Origin: a virus
Virus record (IMG/VR): IMGVR_UViG_3300023110_001306
Span: 1-64,000 of that record
DNA length: 64,000 bases
Reading direction: 5' to 3' (one strand)
Below, piece after piece: positions 3,959 to 64,000 of the stretch. The position numbers and the translations under genes were made by a program. Numbering within the stretch: position 1 is the first letter of the stretch; the number at the start of each line of letters is the position of its first letter. The notes under the pieces are model-generated. The model was given only the letters and a program-made list of their open reading frames with translations. It made no database searches and was not told the DNA's origin.

Positions 3959-4615
3959 TTATTTATCTGTTTTTTCTATTGTTAGGACTTTGTCTGTACG
4001 TAGCACATTCTTGTTTAAAAATAGGCTAATCATAGTAAATGTTTGCTCATCTTTAACAAAAATATAACGTCCTTTTAGATTATATCCCTTTTCAATATCT
4101 TCTAATACTGCATGACCAACACGTACTTTATCTGGATTCTTTTTACAATAATTTGCTAGGTTAGGGTCAGCAGTACCGTTAAGTGTAATCTTTAGTTGGT
4201 AAGTATCGTCCTCGCTAATAATAGTGTTAGCATCAAGATCTATACCTTCGGGCGGTTCAAATAGTGTGCTATTTGGATTCTTTAATTTGCTATCTAAAAG
4301 TAACAACCAATCTTTGTTATTAGAATAAACTCCTAAATACGAACCTTCGCAACGTAATGAGTATTCTTGATCAGCAAACGTAAAGTGATTAAGAAGTACT
4401 TTTAGATCTTCAACTTGTGAATCAGTTAAAGGCCTTTCGTGCATTCGTGTTTTTAAAAAATACGAGTTACCTTGTTTACTATTAATAATATTATCAATAG
4501 CAGACCTAGCATATTCTAATTTTTTATTACGAAAGATATGAGCAATAGGACAGATTACACCTAATTTGAACTTATACTTATCGTAGAATAGTTTATTTGT
4601 TGTTTTATACTTCAT
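3959..4615 (-). CDS. Unknown protein at end of dnaJ-def-clpA operon
   Basis: A 218-aa soluble protein starting MKYKTTNKLFYDKYKFK, basic at the N-terminus. No motif I can name; it has a mixed alpha/beta pattern and no signal or membrane segment. Its start overlaps the clpA end by 11 bases, so it is translationally coupled to clpA and is the last gene of the early operon starting at dnaJ. A role with the Clp machinery (adaptor or substrate selector) is possible from position only. Confidence 0.75.
   Translation of the reverse strand: MKYKTTNKLFYDKYKFKLGVICPIAHIFRNKKLEYARSAIDNIINSKQGNSYFLKTRMHERPLTDSQVEDLKVLLNHFTFADQEYSLRCEGSYLGVYSNNKDWLLLLDSKLKNPNSTLFEPPEGIDLDANTIISEDDTYQLKITLNGTADPNLANYCKKNPDKVRVGHAVLEDIEKGYNLKGRYIFVKDEQTFTMISLFLNKNVLRTDKVLTIEKTDK
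3960..3967 (-). promoter_or_regulatory. T4-like late promoter, leaderless geometry
   Basis: GATAAATA ends 5 nt before the ATG at 3954 (GATAAATA-ATACT-ATG). In T4 the late octamer spans -13 to -6, which would put +1 on the A of the ATG. Confidence 0.65.
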
Positions 4616-6851
4616 TGGTTACGACTTCTTTGCTTTTGATATTTAACAAGAATTCTCCATCTTTAATATCAATATTTAAGTCGCCACCGTTTTTAAGTTC
4701 ACCAAACAACAATTTTTTAGATAGTGGTGTTTTAATCTGATCGTCAATAACACGTTGTAACGGTCTTGCACCCATCTTAGCATCGAACCCTTTGTCTACC
4801 AATAAGTCTATTGCTTCGTCTGTAATAGTTGTATTAACATTTTTCTCTTTTAACATATTTTTAAGATCAAGCAAGAACTTGCCAACAATCTTAAGCATAG
4901 TATTTTTATCTAGTTTACCAAACAACATAATTCCGTCAAGTCTGTTACGGAACTCTGGAGGGAAAAACTTCTTAAGTTCTTTGTCTTCATATTCTTTTTC
5001 AAGAGTATCACCAAACCCAATTGAATTTTGTTCTGCTTCTTGTGAACCTAAGTTAGTTGTTAAAATAAGAACAACATTTCTACAGTCTGCTTGTTTACCA
5101 TTAGATCCTGTAACAAATCCGTTGTCCATAATTTGTAATAGCAACGAACTTACATCAGGATGTGCCTTTTCAATCTCATCTAATAGTAATACAGCATTAG
5201 GATTTTCTTGTAACTTAGTAATTAATAGTCCTGCGTTTTCTTCAAATCCCACATAACCTGGAGGTGAACCAATTAGTTTAGCAACTGAATGCTTTTCTTG
5301 ATATTCTGACATATCAAAACGTATAAGTTTAACACCCAAGTTGTCTGCTAGTTGTTTTGCAGTTTCTGTTTTACCTACACCAGTTGGTCCCATAAACACA
5401 AACGAACCAATAGGTTTATTTTCTGTCTTAAGTCCTGCTTGGGCAACATGAATTTTATCAACAATGCTTTCTAACGATGCATCTTGACCAAATACAACTG
5501 CTTTGAGGTTCTTTTCTAAGTTTGCAAGATTGCTTGTTTCTGTTTCAGCAATTTGCTCTTTAGGTAGGTCGACTGCTTTTGCAAGTTCAAATTGAATTTC
5601 TGCAACGTCAACAATTTTTTCTTCTGCTTTTTTCAATTTAAATCTTGAACAAGCACAATCAAGTAAGTCAATTGCTTTATCTGGAAGTTTCTTATCACTT
5701 TGATATTTTACACTTAATTTAATAGCAGAGTCAACTGCTTCTTCTGTAATAACAACACCGTGAAATTCTTCGTAGTATTTCTTAATACCTAGCAAAATAC
5801 TCTTAGCAATTTCTTTACTTGGTTCGTCTACGGTTACTCTTGCAAATCTACGCATTAATGCACGATCTTTTTCAAAGTACTTGCGATATTCTTCCCAAGT
5901 AGTTGATGCTACAACTTTAATATTTCCTTTTGTAAGAACAGGCTTTAACATATTAGCAAGATCGTTTGAACTTTGGCTTCCGCCAGCACCAGCACCACTA
6001 ATCATATGTGCTTCATCGATAAACACAATAGTTTTGCCACGCTTCTTTAACCCAGCAATAACTAATTTAAAACGTTCTTCAAAGTCGCCTCGATATTTAC
6101 TACCAGCCAACATACTACCAATGTCTAAATTATATACCGAATACTCTTTTAAGAATTCTGGTACAGCACCGTTTACAATATTCCATGCAAGTCCTTCTGC
6201 AATAGCAGTTTTACCTACACCTGGATCACCTACAAGTAACACATTGTTTTTACTACGGCGACCTAGTGCAAGTGCAATACTTTCTAGTTCTTCGTGTCTG
6301 CCAATTACAGGATCAATTTTACCTGTTTCGGCATCTTTGTTTAAGTTAGTTGTGTATGAACGCAATGCTCTTGCCGCCATACCTGCCATTTCCTCATCTT
6401 CAAATGACTGTTCAATTTCGTTATTCAAGTAATCTGCAAACTTCTCTTTTTCAATATCTGATTGTGCAATATAATAATGTGCCCAAGATTTCTTTTCACT
6501 AAACATACTTAAAAATACATCTTGTATTTCAATAGTACTTCTTCCGCTAAACAATACTTGTGTAAATGCTCTGTTAAGAACACGCTCTACTGCTTGTGTC
6601 TTTTTAGGCTTGTATTTTTTATCAACGGCTTCTCTAATAATATCTTCACATTTAGTTTTTAAATGATGTTCAACATTCTTTTTGAGATACTCAGGATCTG
6701 TTCCAAACCCGTTTACAATATTAACAAAACCGTCATCGCATAACATAGCAAACAACAAGTGCTCCAATGTTACATAGTCATGATTAAGTTTCTTAGCATC
6801 GTTAACTGCTTTGTCAAAAACTCCTTGTAAACTTTCGCTAGGTTCTACCAC
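4605..6851 (-). CDS. clpA: ClpA-type AAA+ unfoldase
   Basis: A 748-aa, full-length class I Clp ATPase. An N-domain (residues 1-145, starting with a typical Clp_N helix pattern and LEHLLFAML) precedes AAA-1, with Walker A GDPGVGKT (208-215) and Walker B IDEAH (278-282). AAA-2 follows with GPTGVGKT (488-495) and LLDEIEKAH (556-564). Residues 611-613 are IGF, inside QNSIGFGD, the loop that docks ClpA or ClpX onto ClpP. There is no long coiled-coil middle domain, so it is ClpA and not ClpB. The start is GTG at 6851 with AGGAG upstream, overlapping the deformylase stop by one base. It should unfold proteins and feed them to ClpP, which the phage also encodes at 60302-60868. Confidence 0.95.
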   Translation of the reverse strand: MVEPSESLQGVFDKAVNDAKKLNHDYVTLEHLLFAMLCDDGFVNIVNGFGTDPEYLKKNVEHHLKTKCEDIIREAVDKKYKPKKTQAVERVLNRAFTQVLFSGRSTIEIQDVFLSMFSEKKSWAHYYIAQSDIEKEKFADYLNNEIEQSFEDEEMAGMAARALRSYTTNLNKDAETGKIDPVIGRHEELESIALALGRRSKNNVLLVGDPGVGKTAIAEGLAWNIVNGAVPEFLKEYSVYNLDIGSMLAGSKYRGDFEERFKLVIAGLKKRGKTIVFIDEAHMISGAGAGGSQSSNDLANMLKPVLTKGNIKVVASTTWEEYRKYFEKDRALMRRFARVTVDEPSKEIAKSILLGIKKYYEEFHGVVITEEAVDSAIKLSVKYQSDKKLPDKAIDLLDCACSRFKLKKAEEKIVDVAEIQFELAKAVDLPKEQIAETETSNLANLEKNLKAVVFGQDASLESIVDKIHVAQAGLKTENKPIGSFVFMGPTGVGKTETAKQLADNLGVKLIRFDMSEYQEKHSVAKLIGSPPGYVGFEENAGLLITKLQENPNAVLLLDEIEKAHPDVSSLLLQIMDNGFVTGSNGKQADCRNVVLILTTNLGSQEAEQNSIGFGDTLEKEYEDKELKKFFPPEFRNRLDGIMLFGKLDKNTMLKIVGKFLLDLKNMLKEKNVNTTITDEAIDLLVDKGFDAKMGARPLQRVIDDQIKTPLSKKLLFGELKNGGDLNIDIKDGEFLLNIKSKEVVTNEV

Positions 6852-7372
6852 TATACATTACTCCTACTAAATTTCTTTATTAATTTTTGTTGTTTCTTCT
6901 TAGCCAAATCAAGTTTTAGTTTGCTTACTCTGTCAATATAATTAATTCCATATAGATGATCATATTCATGACCAAAGATTCTTGCATTCCAACCTGTTAA
7001 TTCTATTGTACACTCTTTTCCGCTAGAGTCAAGACACTCTGTTACCAAACCAAATGGTCGTTTTACTTTTAGATATAGTAAAGGAAAACTTAAACAGCCT
7101 TCTTCACCTTCAATCATCTCTTCGGACACGGCTGTAATTTTAGGATTAATAATTGCAAAAGGTTTTTCATCTTCGTAACCTTTTAATCCTGTTGGTTTAA
7201 TAATAAAGATTTGTCCGTTAAACTCGACCTGATTAGCCGCCAAACCTACACCCTGATGCTTTTCCATAATTTCAATCATATCTTTTTCAATTTGTTTAGC
7301 ATCTTGTGTTTCGAAGTCAAAAGGATCAACCCTTTTCTCTAAGAAATCATTAGGATAAGTTATCAGTTTCAT
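6851..7372 (-). CDS. def: Peptide deformylase
   Basis: A 173-aa enzyme of normal length for the family, which removes the formyl group from N-terminal methionine of nascent proteins. All three motifs are present: GVGLAANQ (41-48), EGCLS (91-95, metal ligand C93) and HEYDH (135-139, ligands H135 and H139, catalytic E136). The start overlaps the 3' end of dnaJ by 23 bases and the stop overlaps the clpA GTG, so it is translated as part of the dnaJ-def-clpA operon. Phage deformylases are known in marine phages, where they are thought to speed maturation of phage or photosystem proteins; the latter is not indicated here. Confidence 0.95.
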   Translation of the reverse strand: MKLITYPNDFLEKRVDPFDFETQDAKQIEKDMIEIMEKHQGVGLAANQVEFNGQIFIIKPTGLKGYEDEKPFAIINPKITAVSEEMIEGEEGCLSFPLLYLKVKRPFGLVTECLDSSGKECTIELTGWNARIFGHEYDHLYGINYIDRVSKLKLDLAKKKQQKLIKKFSRSNV

Positions 7373-8201
7373 TCTTAATCTTTCTCAATTGTTCAATAAT
7401 GTCAGTATCTTGTATCTTAGGAGTATCACCATAAATCTTAACAAATAGGTTACCAGTTTGCCCAGTACGTCTATCCGGAAGACCCTGTCCGTGCATACTA
7501 AAAGTTGTTCCACTATTAGTTCCAGGAGGTATTTTTAAACTTACTTCTTTGCCTTGGATAGTACGTATGTGTATACTAGAACCAATCATAAGATCAAAAA
7601 CATTTACTCTCTCGTCTACATATAAATTTATGCCATCTACGGTATAACGTGGGTGCCTTCTGACTCTTACAATTACAAATAAATCACCTCTAGGAGCATT
7701 AGGAATTTGGTCGCCGCCCATTCCGGAATATCGTATTTTATCTCCTGGTCTTACGCCTGACGGTAATGTAACATTTACACTTTGTTCTTTACCACTAGGT
7801 AGTCTATACGTAATTAAAAAGTCTTTACCAAACACAATATCTTCAATATCAATATCTGCGGCCAATGTAATATCTTGGTTACGCATTTGTCTTTGTCCAA
7901 ATGGTGAACGATGTCCAAAAAATGAACCAAAAATATCTTCCATATCACTAGCATTGAAATGAAAACTCGAACCACCATGCCCTCTTGCGTGTGCCTGTTG
8001 AGGATCAGCAGTTCCGTATTGATCATACATACGTTTCTTTTCAGGATTACTTAGTGTTTGGTATGCTTCGTTTAACTGTGTAAACAATTTATGATCACCA
8101 CCCTTATCGGGGTGCTGAGTCGCCGCCTTTTTTCTAAAGGCAGTTTTAATTTCTTTTTCGGATGCGTTTCGTGAGACGCCTAATAATTCATAATAATCCA
8201 T
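7350..8201 (-). CDS. dnaJ: DnaJ/CbpA-type J-domain co-chaperone
   Basis: A 283-aa Hsp40. It opens with a J-domain (residues 1-65) with the HPD motif at 30-32 and a Gly/Phe/His-rich linker. Two C-terminal substrate-binding beta domains follow (DNAJ_C). It lacks the four CxxCxGxG zinc repeats, so it is CbpA-like. It would recruit host DnaK. The ATG follows TATAAT by only 6 nt and has no Shine-Dalgarno, so it should be made from a leaderless mRNA. It leads the early operon dnaJ-def-clpA-unknown. Confidence 0.92.
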   Translation of the reverse strand: MDYYELLGVSRNASEKEIKTAFRKKAATQHPDKGGDHKLFTQLNEAYQTLSNPEKKRMYDQYGTADPQQAHARGHGGSSFHFNASDMEDIFGSFFGHRSPFGQRQMRNQDITLAADIDIEDIVFGKDFLITYRLPSGKEQSVNVTLPSGVRPGDKIRYSGMGGDQIPNAPRGDLFVIVRVRRHPRYTVDGINLYVDERVNVFDLMIGSSIHIRTIQGKEVSLKIPPGTNSGTTFSMHGQGLPDRRTGQTGNLFVKIYGDTPKIQDTDIIEQLRKIKNETDNLS

Positions 8202-13998: not shown

Positions 13999-14334
13999 TT
14001 ATCCTGTTCTCCATATTACGTGTACACCAAAAGGTGATACTACTGGGTGTGGTCCTAGTTCTCCAACTGGAATATTTAAACAAGCACTTGAAAATTCAAT
14101 AGCCATTTCAGTTGGATCAAACCAACCAAGATCACCACCGTTTGTTTTGCTTGGACAAGCACTATTTTCTCTTGCCATTTGATCAAAACTTACGCCGCCG
14201 CGTTTTAATTCAGCGGTAATTCTTTCGCCTTCTTGCATAGCGAAAGCAATACTTCTACTATGTGTAGAGTTTCTTGCACCTTTAAATGACAACAAGATAT
14301 GACTTGCTCTCATTTTACTTGGAAACTTAGACAT
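13999..14334 (-). CDS. Parvulin-type peptidyl-prolyl isomerase
   Basis: A 111-aa single-domain rotamase. Features in order: RASHILLSF (first strand with the active-site His), FDQMARENSACPS, GGDLGWF, and the closing FGVHVIWRTG. This is the whole parvulin fold with no signal peptide or membrane anchor, so it acts in the cytoplasm. It catalyses proline isomerisation and so belongs with the phage's other folding factors. Its start overlaps the ferredoxin stop by one base. Confidence 0.88.
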   Translation of the reverse strand: MSKFPSKMRASHILLSFKGARNSTHSRSIAFAMQEGERITAELKRGGVSFDQMARENSACPSKTNGGDLGWFDPTEMAIEFSSACLNIPVGELGPHPVVSPFGVHVIWRTG

Positions 14335-14666
14335 TATTGTCCTCCTGGCTTATCACTAAAATATTTTTCAAATTTACCTTCAACGCCTTGCCATTCTTCT
14401 GCATCTTCAGGTTCAGTACCTTTAACAGTAATGTTAGGCCATTCTTGACTGTATTTAAGATTTAATTGCATCCATTTACCGTCATCCTGGCTTTCAGTGA
14501 TAATTGCTTCTGCTGGACATTCTGGTTCACATACACCGCAATCAATACATTCGTCAGGGTTAATTACAAGCATATTTTCACCTTCATAAAAGCAGTCTAC
14601 CGGACATACTTCTACGCAATCCATGTGTTTACATTTAATACACTTGTCGTTAACTAAGTAACTCAT
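14334..14666 (-). CDS. Seven-iron bacterial ferredoxin (FdxA-like)
   Basis: A 110-aa ferredoxin. The N-terminus carries [17 protein letters not shown] (C9, C12, C17, C21, C25), and a second cluster motif is [12 protein letters not shown] (C40, C43, C46, C50). The spacing matches the [3Fe-4S]/[4Fe-4S] FdxA type of proteobacteria, not the plant-type [2Fe-2S] ferredoxin carried by cyanophages. The remaining 55 residues form the usual helical tail. It could donate electrons to the bilin reductase at the right edge; that link is an inference. Confidence 0.92.
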
Positions 14667-17420: not shown

Positions 17421-17858
17421 TTATCTTGGTCTGTCTGCAAAGTCCTCAGGACGAGGACCACCGCTATTAAAGTCAGTATTAGTTCCGATTTGCAAATCTT
17501 CTGGCTCTTCTTCTTGCCAGGCTAATATTGCATTTACATCAATTAGTCTAACTTCAATTTCTCCCATATCGGGATCATCTAAAATGATACCACGTGACCA
17601 ACGTCCGTGTTCAACATAGATCCAGTTACCCACAGCATAGGGGTCTTTATTTTCATGTCCGATAGCATAAATTTTACACCATCTTGGACGGATGCCTGCT
17701 TCTTGGCCGTCATCACTTGCGATAATAATACCACCTTTAGTAGTACGTTCTCCAAAGTTCATGTCATAAGCAAGTACGCCATCATGTATCGGTCTAAGTT
17801 TGCCAGTTGCCCTAGTTTTTAACTTAGGACCGGCTCCTAACATCTGCGTATCCATCAT
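17421..17858 (-). CDS. groES: Phage co-chaperonin GroES (gp31 analogue)
   Basis: A 145-aa protein. A GroES-like barrel runs from about residue 18 to 112 (KLRPIHDGVLAYDMNFGERTTKGGIII, then VGNWIYVEHGRWSRG), followed by a 30-residue acidic, Pro-rich tail. The mobile loop is replaced by GERTTKGGI, as in GroES-like caps. It would cap host GroEL and favour capsid-protein folding, as T4 gp31 does. Preceded by a late-promoter gene and followed by mazG. Confidence 0.82.
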   Translation of the reverse strand: MMDTQMLGAGPKLKTRATGKLRPIHDGVLAYDMNFGERTTKGGIIIASDDGQEAGIRPRWCKIYAIGHENKDPYAVGNWIYVEHGRWSRGIILDDPDMGEIEVRLIDVNAILAWQEEEPEDLQIGTNTDFNSGGPRPEDFADRPR

Positions 17859-18304: not shown

Positions 18305-18312
18305 TATTTATC
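18305..18312 (-). promoter_or_regulatory. T4-like late promoter GATAAATA
   Basis: GATAAATA 26 nt upstream of the ATG at 18279; it overlaps the stop codon of the upstream gene. Confidence 0.68.
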
Positions 18313-18865
18313 TTAGGAACTCACGCCAATCGAGGTCAAAGTGGATTGAGTCTACCCTATGAATTCCAATAATATATAGCACATAACTTGCTACACTTGA
18401 TCCTCTTCCGACACCCCATACAATATTGTTTTCACGCATATAATCAACCAAATATACCAAATATTGTAATAATGGATACATTCCTCTTTCAAAAAACTCA
18501 GTTAATTCTTCGGTAATACGTATCCATTCCTTTGTATCACGTAATGCTACTGGATCATCAATTTGTAATTTTTCCATTAATTTTGCTTCAAGCCATTTGT
18601 TTGGATTTAATTGTTTATACTCTTCTGGCATAAACCATTCGCTTTGACAAACATTATCAAATTCTTTTTGTTCTACATCTAATGGAATATATTTTTGTAA
18701 TGGATTCATACCTTGTTCTTCCATTACTTTATTAAACTTATCAATATCGTCACTAGGGTCGCAGAGAACTACATGACACTTGTCAATGTTTCCTGTATAG
18801 ATCATTTCTATCAGGTCACGATTAGAAAATCGTGGTATTCCTAGAGAATCAGTTTTCATAAGCAT
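18308..18865 (-). CDS. DNA polymerase III alpha-like fragment (standalone)
   Basis: A 185-aa protein whose last 45 residues (NNIVWGVGRGSSVASYVLYI ... DSIHFDLDWREFLR) match the palm-entry segment of bacterial DnaE (GRGS...SYVLYxxGIxxVD...FERFL). It stops just before the place where DnaE has its catalytic PDFDxDF aspartates, so it cannot be a polymerase by itself. The first 140 residues are weakly similar to the preceding DnaE/PHP region. Start ATG lies 7 nt after a TAAAAT -10, with a second in-frame ATG two codons on. Possible regulator or decoy of host replication (inference). Confidence 0.75.
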   Translation of the reverse strand: MLMKTDSLGIPRFSNRDLIEMIYTGNIDKCHVVLCDPSDDIDKFNKVMEEQGMNPLQKYIPLDVEQKEFDNVCQSEWFMPEEYKQLNPNKWLEAKLMEKLQIDDPVALRDTKEWIRITEELTEFFERGMYPLLQYLVYLVDYMRENNIVWGVGRGSSVASYVLYIIGIHRVDSIHFDLDWREFLR

Positions 18866-38281: not shown

Positions 38282-38605
38282 CTAAAGTCCTATTGATTCC
38301 CCACAACCGCAACTTGATGTTGAAGCAGGATTTGTAATGTTGAAGTAAGATCCAAATAATTCTTTTTTGTAATCAACTGTTGATCCTATCAAATACATAA
38401 TACTTGTACTATCTATAGCAAACTTGCCATTTTCTAGATCAATTACTTCATCGTTATCTTCTAGCGTGTCCTCTAATGACCAATCATACATGAATCCTGC
38501 ACAGCCACCACCTTTTAAGGATAGTTTTACGGCTGGTTTTTGATGCTCTTTAAGCATACTGTTTAGATGTTCTTTTGCAGAATCAGTTAATGTTACTACT
38601 GTCAT
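38282..38605 (-). CDS. A-type Fe-S carrier (IscA/HesB-like)
   Basis: A 107-aa protein of the usual length. The three conserved Cys are present: GGGCAGF (about residue 35) and SSCGCGES near the C-terminus, in the C-x(n)-CGC pattern. These proteins take and pass Fe-S clusters to target proteins. In this phage the ferredoxin at 14334-14666 is an obvious possible client. It lies just before the giant fibre gene, 9 nt away. Confidence 0.9.
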   Translation of the reverse strand: MTVVTLTDSAKEHLNSMLKEHQKPAVKLSLKGGGCAGFMYDWSLEDTLEDNDEVIDLENGKFAIDSTSIMYLIGSTVDYKKELFGSYFNITNPASTSSCGCGESIGL

Positions 38606-42445: not shown

Positions 42446-42997
42446 TTACATTGATGTATTTACTGGACCGTATGATTTAGTATTCATTGCTTTCATAGGA
42501 TTAGCACCCAAACTTAACGTTACCCTTGGACCTATAATCATAGGTTTGTGATTTGTTAGTCTTGGTAATAAAATTGCATCACCCGGATTTAGTGTGTAGA
42601 TTGTTTTTTCTTGAGTATCTTTATCAGTTACTAAGTAAGCAACCTGTCCGTATCCTTGAATTAGTAATACAGTTTCATAGTCATTATGAAGCATTAAACT
42701 ATTGTGTGTGTCACTCATGCTGTAAAATAAACTAGCATTGAAGTGAGTTTCAGTTTCGTGTCGATCATAGTTTGATTGGAAGTCAAGCATATACTTTTGC
42801 AATCTCTTATCAGATCCAACATCGGGCAAGTGCGATCCGCCTCTTGCTAATTCATCGACATTAGTAATTGTTGCTTTGTATTGATTTACTTCTACAAGAG
42901 TTTCAAAATTAATATCGTTTTTTGCATCGGGAAAAGCATTACGATAAACAGCAACGTTTAGATTTTTACGATCTTCGTTTACTTGACTCCAATCCAT
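42446..42997 (-). CDS. Cupin-fold protein
   Basis: A 183-aa protein. The ATG at 42997 is chosen over 43039 because GAGG precedes it and the longer form would overlap the QueD-like gene. A cupin barrel is suggested by LMLHNDYETVLLIQGYGQ and LNPGDAILLPRLTNHKPM, which have cupin motif 1 and 2 spacing. Potential metal-binding His residues lie in both motifs. By neighbours it may act on sugars. Function not identified. Confidence 0.72.
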   Translation of the reverse strand: MDWSQVNEDRKNLNVAVYRNAFPDAKNDINFETLVEVNQYKATITNVDELARGGSHLPDVGSDKRLQKYMLDFQSNYDRHETETHFNASLFYSMSDTHNSLMLHNDYETVLLIQGYGQVAYLVTDKDTQEKTIYTLNPGDAILLPRLTNHKPMIIGPRVTLSLGANPMKAMNTKSYGPVNTSM

Positions 42998-42998
42998 C

Positions 42999-43448
42999 TT
43001 ACGCCTCGTAGATTGCAGAGTTAGCACCGTGTTCTGCACATTCTACCTTAACGCAATAACAACGATTATCTGTCTTTTCTCTAATTAGTTTGTCTGCAAA
43101 ATTAAATGCGTGTTCTGCAAACTTCTCTGCACCAACACCATCAAATATTCTTAGTTCTGCTAGACCCAGTGCTTCTAGTTTTTGTAATTCTTCTAAAAAT
43201 GGATCTGCTCGATCTACTGCTACCTTGTGATCAAAACTATCTTCTAGCCAAGCCTTTAGTGGTTTTAGTCCTCCAAAGTCTACTGCCCAGTTTTTGTTAT
43301 CTAGTTCATCACAACCAAATGTGAATGTAAATGCTAGACTGTAACCGTGTAGTAGATGGCAATGTGAATGATCTGCGTTTGGTTGTCTAAAGACTGCCGA
43401 TAGGCCAATATTATGACCATAATGTTTTGTACTGTAATGTTTACCCAT
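42999..43448 (-). CDS. 6-pyruvoyl-tetrahydropterin synthase/QueD-like protein
   Basis: A 149-aa protein of QueD size. Features are NADHSHCHLLHGYSL (zinc-site region, with HGY in place of the usual HGH), WAVDFGGLK, DHKVAVD and the C-terminal CAEHGANSAIYE. QueD makes carboxytetrahydropterin for preQ0 and 7-deazaguanine synthesis. Similar HGY-type proteins are common in marine phages. The strong early promoter is 73 nt upstream, leaving a GC-rich leader that can fold. No other queuosine gene is in the window. Confidence 0.85.
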   Translation of the reverse strand: MGKHYSTKHYGHNIGLSAVFRQPNADHSHCHLLHGYSLAFTFTFGCDELDNKNWAVDFGGLKPLKAWLEDSFDHKVAVDRADPFLEELQKLEALGLAELRIFDGVGAEKFAEHAFNFADKLIREKTDNRCYCVKVECAEHGANSAIYEA

Positions 43449-60301: not shown

Positions 60302-60868
60302 TTAAAATATGTGATCTGCAATACCTAAATCAACCATTTGTTTGGCTGTGTAATATTGATCACTTGGGTTCTTAATAAATTTGTTACGTACTTCTTGGAT
60401 TGTCATTCCGCTGGCATCTTTTAATATTTGTAAACAACGCATTTCACAGTTTTGGTTTTCTTTCATCTGTGCTTTCATGTCGTGTACTTTGGCTTCCATT
60501 GAGTCGGAATGTTGATGATTCATTGAACCTGCATTTTTACCAACATAACGCTCACCCTGTTTGCCACTAGCAAAAATTAAAAAGCCAGCACTCATAACAG
60601 CACCAATACCGATAGTGCTAATGTTATGATAACTGTTCTTCATTACATCAATCAAAGCAAATGCTTCGTATAGGTCTCCGCCATATGTGTTAATGTAAAG
60701 TTTAAGGGTACGTTTTGGTTTCTTGTTTAAGTTTGCAGAAAGAATCCATTTGATTGCTTCACCTACATTTTCACTAGCAATGTCGCCGTGCAGATAATGG
60801 ATATCACTGTCCAACAGACTTTTATCAATGGCGTCACTTGCAGTCCAATTATCGTATTTTGTAGGCAT
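60302..60868 (-). CDS. clpP: ClpP-type serine protease
   Basis: A 188-aa ClpP. The nucleophile is S93 in IGAVMSAGF, the His is H118 in MNHQHS, and the Asp is D170 in PSDQYYTA. LYINTYGGDLYEAF is the conserved oxyanion strand. No N-terminal extension, so a mature cytoplasmic form. Together with the phage ClpA, whose IGF docking loop is intact, it could form a phage ClpAP protease. A late-type octamer (60895-60902) precedes it, while clpA is early. Confidence 0.93.
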   Translation of the reverse strand: MPTKYDNWTASDAIDKSLLDSDIHYLHGDIASENVGEAIKWILSANLNKKPKRTLKLYINTYGGDLYEAFALIDVMKNSYHNISTIGIGAVMSAGFLIFASGKQGERYVGKNAGSMNHQHSDSMEAKVHDMKAQMKENQNCEMRCLQILKDASGMTIQEVRNKFIKNPSDQYYTAKQMVDLGIADHIF

Positions 60869-63351: not shown

Positions 63352-63359
63352 TATTTATG
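63352..63359 (-). promoter_or_regulatory. Late promoter CATAAATA
   Basis: CATAAATA ends 8 nt before the ATG at 63343. It overlaps the stop region of the bilin reductase gene. Confidence 0.58.
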
Positions 63360-64000
63360 CTATTTTTGGAAATAATGCGTTAGTGCAGAATTCGTCAACA
63401 TCTGCTTCATTAAGTCCTAATGACTTCATAACTCTAGGTGTATGTGGATTTTGTTGCTGGTTATGGCAGTAGTAGTTTTGAGCACCTGCTGTAATATCTA
63501 CACTAGCATTGCCTGTATACTCAGGAACACTATCAAACCATACACGCAGGTTTTCTAAAGCAAGATCTACAATAGCAGTTGCTTCTTCTTCTGTGCGAAC
63601 ATTACCTGCGGCAACCATTCCTGGTGAAAAGATGTTCTGTGCCCATTCGGGTAGTTCACGTTGTTTACTAGGAATAAAATCTTTAACAGCATCTAAGTAC
63701 CATTCTACAAGAGGATGTTCTTCACCGCCTGAACTTGCTGAAAAATCATGAAATGCACCTGTCATTTTATTCTTACCTGCAATAACATCAAAGCCGTAAA
63801 TAGGACCATCATTTGATAACACAGGAAAACAACATACGTGCATCATCCACAGTCCGTGCGAGTCTCTTGCGTCTACAACATCAATGTGTGCTCTGCGTAC
63901 ATGATCATTTGCCCATACTCTGTTGATCCAACCGTTCTCAGGCTGATTAAATTTGTTTAATCCTTTTTCTTCTATTTCAGTGGCTTTCTCATCAAAGATG
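63355..64000 (-). CDS. Ferredoxin-dependent bilin reductase (PcyA/PcyX-like), N-terminus outside window
   Basis: The frame is open to the right edge, so the N-terminus is missing; 215 codons are visible. Alignable PcyA features are RRAHIDVV (region of PcyA H74), MMHVCCFP (His equal to H88), then exactly 17 residues to YGFDVIAG (Asp equal to D105), HDFSAS, QRELPEWAQNIFS and the closing YYCHNQQQNPHTPRVM. These enzymes reduce biliverdin with electrons from ferredoxin. Retaining both His and Asp is PcyA/PcyX-like. Its product may be phycocyanobilin or phycoerythrobilin. Confidence 0.88.
   Translation of the reverse strand, partial: IFDEKATEIEEKGLNKFNQPENGWINRVWANDHVRRAHIDVVDARDSHGLWMMHVCCFPVLSNDGPIYGFDVIAGKNKMTGAFHDFSASSGGEEHPLVEWYLDAVKDFIPSKQRELPEWAQNIFSPGMVAAGNVRTEEEATAIVDLALENLRVWFDSVPEYTGNASVDITAGAQNYYCHNQQQNPHTPRVMKSLGLNEADVDEFCTNALFPKIA

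Follow-up and report, generated by a model that had tools for sequence, protein, structure and literature searches.

At the right-hand end of a 64,000-base stretch of viral DNA (the window, bases 1-64000 of a virus record that has 77,990 bp and so extends 14 kb beyond it), we identified a gene for a PcyX-type bilin reductase. Our main reading, to which we assign a probability of roughly 0.7, is that this PcyX is a phage phycoerythrobilin (PEB) synthase, encoded by the last gene of a bilin operon that includes a dedicated, probably tailoring halogenase, and that the phage is most likely a jumbo phage. The PcyX cassette found here brings a third, dedicated enzyme whose chemistry is open to assay. 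PcyX would moreover now be placed in a second, very large phage lineage; since this lineage has a ferredoxin of the bacterial 7Fe type in place of the plant-type protein, the identity of the electron donor can be tested.

Identity and predicted product of the bilin reductase

The pcyX gene occupies positions 63355-64050 of the record on the minus strand, of which 63355..64000 lie in the window. An earlier note, made from the letters of the window alone, had proposed a bilin reductase here with 215 visible residues; the frame (63355..63999, minus strand) is real but counts 214 codons, and the enzyme family is borne out by the Fe_bilin_red domain, the match to structure 5owg and the placement in the PcyX clade. 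The N-terminus, which the note expected to the right of the window, lies in bases 64001-64050, so that the complete protein has 231 amino acids with an ATG start and an unbroken frame; the longest alternative proposed by the ORF lister starts at a TTG 15 bases earlier and gives 236 amino acids. A broken gene or a frame shift beyond the window is ruled out by the intact frame up to 64050.

PcyX, whose original description is said to be that of Ledermann in 2016, is readily recognized. The part inside the window matches the Pfam family Fe_bilin_red (PF05996) with 63.3 bits (E 3.3e-17) and the whole protein with 63.6 bits, both above the curated cut-off of 31. By phmmer, PcyX 5owg is the closest of the solved structures (E 9.2e-82, full-length), the best PcyA chain reaching 8.8e-12, and 259 viral stretches encode relatives. 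As a sequence match this is far beyond chance. In a 40-row maximum-likelihood tree, with few references, several partial rows and some long branches meeting, a branch with support 99/98 separates 30 PcyX rows, the window protein among them, from 7 PcyA and 3 Peb rows; a position outside the ferredoxin-dependent bilin reductases, which the note had named as fatal to its claim, was thus not found. The distance from His71 to Asp88 is exactly 17 residues, the spacing that had been read from the letters, and both fall in the same alignment columns as the His/Asp pair of two solved PcyA sequences, while the expected PcyA-type C-terminal block is present as YCHNQQQNPHTPRV. On sequence grounds the gene is therefore a pcyX of the ferredoxin-dependent bilin reductases. 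An identity as PcyA or PebS is ruled out by the tree and the residues.

The solved structure 5owg is that of EBK42635, a metagenomic phage phycoerythrobilin synthase with which the window protein shares the PcyX clade, the His/Asp pair and the position of Asp55, here Asp57. In the 40-row alignment this position holds Asp in 30/30 PcyX rows and in one of the two PebS rows, and Glu in 7/7 PcyA rows. The text of Wegner 2024 (PMC11480375) ties Asp55 to PEB rather than phycocyanobilin (PCB) and explains a phycocyanobilin-making freshwater phage enzyme by its missing Asp55; combined with the Asp at this position, the predicted product of the window enzyme is therefore PEB, which we regard as likely. 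Within PcyX, Mosig-type and window-type proteins are separate in the tree: 5owg belongs to the Mosig-type clade (98/97), the window protein to another (95/94), and two window-type rows, L048 and L062, stand outside both. The enzyme itself is not new, because PcyX together with heme oxygenase has been reported in phages of non-photosynthetic bacteria in the text of the same paper (PMC11480375), where marine contigs are assigned to pelagiphages; the tie to non-cyanobacterial phages mentioned in the earlier note is thus in print.

The operon and its halogenase

The heme oxygenase gene that had been sought to the right was found two genes upstream of pcyX. All genes of this stretch are on the minus strand: halogenase at 64047-65567 (506 amino acids; Trp_halogenase, PF04820, 1.7e-89, 301 bits, cut-off 21), hemO at 65560-66099 (179 amino acids; Heme_oxygenase, PF01126, 1.2e-22, 81.2 bits, cut-off 23), clpS at 66096-66545 (ClpS, 5.2e-27), an Hsp20 gene at 66472-66921 (HSP20, 8.7e-16) and a DnaK gene at 66983-68896 (HSP70). 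The genes clpS, hemO, halogenase and pcyX are tightly packed with overlapping frames, pcyX being the last. The heme oxygenase retains the GDLSGGQ motif and the histidine that we take to be the proximal one, both aligned with solved heme oxygenases. Proteostasis genes of this phage form a broad set, with Clp ATPase, peptide deformylase, DnaJ, GroES-like protein (a weak match, Cpn10 22.5 bits), ClpP, ClpS, Hsp20 and DnaK, located at 4605-8201, 17421-17858 and 60302-60868 of the window and at 66096-68896 of the record.

To survey gene order we used the best 80 of the 259 viral matches to PcyX. hemO lies upstream of pcyX in 79 of these 80, the remaining one (L079) starting at a contig end, and ClpS precedes hemO by -14 to +141 bases in 79 of the 80 loci, the 80th again starting at a contig end. 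Between hemO and pcyX, 22/79 cassettes hold a halogenase and 24/79 another insert, mostly a small ORF, and the two genes are directly adjacent in 33/79, as they also are in Mosig, counted as an 81st locus; the halogenase is therefore dispensable for the core pathway. Where it is present, its frame overlaps that of hemO by 8-20 bases in 22/22 cassettes and that of pcyX by 4 bases in 18/22; in the other four, 116 to 895 bases separate it from pcyX (start codons assigned by script).

Enzymes of other families occupy the same slot. A carbon-nitrogen (CN) hydrolase-like gene stands between hemO and pcyX in L026, L030, L031, L046, L170 and L171, with PF00795 confirmed in both genes tested (L046 and L170), and 2OG-oxygenase genes are found there in L030 and L081 above the Pfam cut-off and, as a weaker match below the curated cut-off, in L171. 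A 2OG reading of the L064 insert, made by eye, was dropped as unsupported by Pfam. In L030 a second, divergent heme-oxygenase-like protein (L030:2629-3255; 30 bits, cut-off 23) is also encoded between hemO and pcyX, adjoining the CN hydrolase and the 2OG oxygenase. A ferrochelatase-like gene lies upstream of hemO-pcyX in Mosig (L083:8357-9127) and in Mosig-type loci such as L209, L214, L234 and L240, where a different halogenase is sometimes found near it.

The 22 cassette contigs carry 14 distinct halogenase sequences. With an alignment of 13 halogenase proteins, including that of the window's phage, as query for a viral scan, and among the best 80 loci obtained, from which relatives between 37% and 52% identity could be absent, hemO and pcyX accompany the halogenase in 16/16 loci of at least 52% identity and in 0/64 loci of at most 37% identity (flanks up to 6 kb, often less). 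These 16 loci and the 22 contigs are non-independent, since 15 of the 16 contigs are already among the 22 and only 14 sequences are distinct. In a tree of 39 halogenases, which took in 18 of the 64 distant viral loci with none excluded for stops, the 13 cassette proteins group in a single clade (100/100), to which VirX1 and HTVC008M do not belong. Among the best 80 matches, this clade was found only within the hemO-pcyX cassette. A halogenase-family match also lies upstream of hemO in 12/80 Mosig-type loci, in the stretch covered; these do not support the linkage, because the six that were included in the tree group with VirX1 and HTVC008M and not with the cassette halogenases. Over 78 pairs, the divergence of the cassette halogenase correlates with that of PcyX (r 0.89) and that of HemO (r 0.83), which fits co-inherited genes but is also expected from whole phages descending together. 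From the overlaps, the 16/16 against 0/64 loci, the clade and the divergence, a chance linkage was judged unlikely.

The FAD motif, Lys82 and Glu349-Ser350 are invariant in 13/13 cassette halogenases, the latter residues aligning with the catalytic Lys79 and Glu358-Ser359 of Thal, whose roles are described in the text of PMC7948982. A structure prediction (mean pLDDT 77, with a weak stretch at 437-454) superposes on SttH with Z 37.3 (rmsd 3.0, 472 aligned), on PrnA with Z 36.1 and on VirX1 of cyanophage Syn10, which has the same fold, with Z 31.3 (rmsd 3.5, 459 aligned). The cassette halogenase is nevertheless only about 26-31% identical to VirX1 and to Thal/RebH/PrnA-type halogenases, forms a clade separate from VirX1 (100/100) and, unlike VirX1, Thal, RebH and PrnA, was found solely with hemO-pcyX. 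Its motif reads WIWKTP, where halogenases usually have WxWxIP. The profile match to Thal, RebH and PrnA ends at about 427-433, and the single sequence aligns on to 463 (RebH) or 483 (PrnA); the C-terminal part of tryptophan halogenases is involved in tryptophan binding.

The phage lineage carrying the cassette

Scanning bacterial genomes with the PcyX alignment yielded four loci, all on MAG contigs with Hsp20, ClpS, HemO and PcyX. We read these as phage contigs in MAGs, as is demonstrated for one of them, the 335-kb contig PBPT01000016.1. Although filed in a Neomarinimicrobiota MAG, this contig has clear head, sheath and terminase genes and encodes Hsp20, ClpS, HemO, a CN hydrolase and PcyX; since it is a phage, the MAG contains phage DNA. 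Of the 83 window ORFs, which include spurious frames, 57 match it, 50 of them in one order, and because of this colinearity the window would be a piece of a jumbo phage, which we consider the most likely origin. Set against a genome size above 200 kb for jumbo phages, the window's own record measures 78 kb and its colinear relative 335 kb.

The phage could instead be another Mosig-type, T4-like pelagiphage, bearing the published cassette into which a gene was inserted locally. In Pelagibacter phage Mosig EXVC030M (MT647606), pcyX likewise follows hemO, there directly and with overlapping frames, and its PcyX is 52.6% identical, and such a phage would agree with the assignment of marine contigs to pelagiphages in the text of Wegner 2024 (PMC11480375). 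The complete Mosig genome is also matched by 20/83 window ORFs, a glycoside hydrolase at 78%, and for the DNA ligase the 15 best isolates listed are Bacillus-type phages of 130-150 kb (32-35% identity), not jumbo phages. Yet these 20 matches are scattered, whereas the 57 to the 335-kb contig are largely colinear, so that the window lacks the gene content and order of the Mosig type; its clamp loader is 89% identical to that of the 335-kb contig against 36% to that of Mosig, the 15 best isolates listed for this protein are phages of 285-490 kb (42-56% identity), and the PcyX tree keeps the two types apart. We therefore regard a Mosig-type phage as very improbable. Head, sheath and terminase proteins share 32-35% identity between the 335-kb contig and Mosig, and the two phages are thus distant kin; a jumbo phage distantly related to the T4-like pelagiphages remains our preferred reading of the window. 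The head protein Gp23 was found in 1/16 records, Mosig alone, the others being fragments, yet the 335-kb contig's head protein is 33% identical to that of Mosig. A Terminase_6N search found nothing in 6 records.

Both phages have a tmRNA, that of Mosig being annotated and that of the 335-kb phage lying at L277:2056-2400 with the tag ANDNYAPEMAMAA, presumably alphaproteobacterial from its looks. On the 335-kb phage a 432-amino-acid ORF (L280:8632-9930) shows, by eye, a CLICH heme-binding-like motif and has no Pfam or PHROG match.

Proposed pathway and alternatives

In the proposed pathway, HemO would likely open host heme to biliverdin, iron and CO, and PcyX would likely reduce biliverdin to PEB with four electrons from ferredoxin. 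The activities of HemO, halogenase and PcyX are predicted from the conserved residues and the clades. A plausible donor is the phage's own FdxA-type 7Fe ferredoxin, encoded at 14334-14666 on the minus strand (DUF3470 2.3e-19, Fer4 1.6e-9; NCBIfam FdxA_Protbact 157 bits, cut-off 135), bacterial and not plant-type as the earlier note had it, although the gene lies 50 kb from the bilin operon. A DUF3470 ferredoxin is present in 7/16 records, including all five uncultured ones of at least 95 kb, and was not found in the other 9/16, Mosig among these; that of the 335-kb contig is 69% identical to the window's, and plant-type Fer2 occurs in 1/16 records, namely Mosig. The cassette-dedicated halogenase would most likely tailor a compound of the pathway or some other small aromatic molecule that is used alongside.

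More tentatively, the jumbo-phage cluster might make a halogenated bilin (chlorinated, brominated or iodinated) by means of HemO, PcyX with the phage's own 7Fe ferredoxin and the halogenase; the CN hydrolase or 2OG oxygenase that sister phages add or substitute in this slot would extend this to a family of tailored bilins that are not light-harvesting pigments. We consider this proposal, and halogenation of the bilin itself, rather unlikely; if the halogenase does act on a bilin, a search could be made for a concrete and unexpected molecule, with which a light-harvesting explanation would not fit.

The cassette could also serve heme breakdown for iron, CO or control of heme levels, PcyX merely draining biliverdin and the halogenase being a passenger of the operon. 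We think this possible, though on balance unlikely. It is in line with the lack of a halogenase in 57/79 hemO cassettes, with the halogenase and 2OG genes of T4-like marine phages that have no FDBR match (e.g. HTVC008M, outside the 17 FDBR records) and with the iron-supply role mentioned in the text of Wegner 2024 (PMC11480375). A pure drain, however, would not need a four-electron reductase, and a passenger sits uneasily with a halogenase clade seen, among the best 80 matches, only in the hemO-pcyX cassette with overlapping frames, and with the recurrence of enzymes of other families in the same slot. Production of a chromophore for a light sensor of the host, or for another bilin-binding protein, appears improbable to us: the same enzymes do lie beside a phytochrome in Bradyrhizobium ORS278 according to the text of Wegner 2024 (PMC11480375), but PHY, phycobilisome and GAF families were each found in 0/16 phage records, the window's own included and the 335-kb contig lying outside this set, all but Mosig being fragments or possibly so. 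Consistent with the earlier note's remark on missing photosynthesis genes, photosystem D1/D2 was found in 0/15 related records (the window's own excluded) and in 0/4 MAGs holding related contigs. These gene absences are weak evidence, because the uncultured records are fragments and only Mosig is complete.

The operon of our main reading can be set beside published cassettes. The hemO-pcyA/X-valaS cassettes in the text of Wegner 2024 (PMC11480375) likewise combine heme oxygenase and PcyX in phages but, unlike them, the window's record has no 5-aminolevulinate synthase. This enzyme is encoded in 6/16 records and on the 335-kb contig (557 bits, cut-off 339) and was not found in the window's own record or in G002. 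In Mosig, pcyX comes directly after hemO and neither a halogenase nor ClpS is annotated in the cassette; upstream of it are 2OG oxygenases and a ferrochelatase, and the ferredoxin is plant-type 2Fe-2S. The word halogenase is absent from the main text of PMC11480375, and in open-licence literature texts, figures and supplements aside, we came across no bilin cassette reported to contain a halogenase, nor any jumbo phage with a marine heme oxygenase; for heme oxygenase in pelagiphages this literature gave Wegner 2024 alone. In passages of a review of cyanophages, halogenase and bilin/heme oxygenase are treated separately, a passage of one paper matching halogenase and jumbo phage describes a cyanophage gene cluster and names no heme genes, and open-licence matches for halogenated bilins concern porphyrins, by title and abstract start (further sources: PMC10452541, PMC13197396, PMC7824862). 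Within these searches, a halogenase inside a bilin operon and a jumbo-phage lineage carrying PcyX look new.

Elsewhere in the window, an iron-sulphur assembly family protein (38282-38605), a weak JmjC-like protein (42446-43039) and a pyruvoyl-tetrahydropterin synthase family gene (42999-43448) are encoded. At 18308-18865 lies a 185-amino-acid stand-alone DNA polymerase fragment, which matches a 171-position PHROG along most of its length (1.7e-35) and is perhaps part of a split polymerase.
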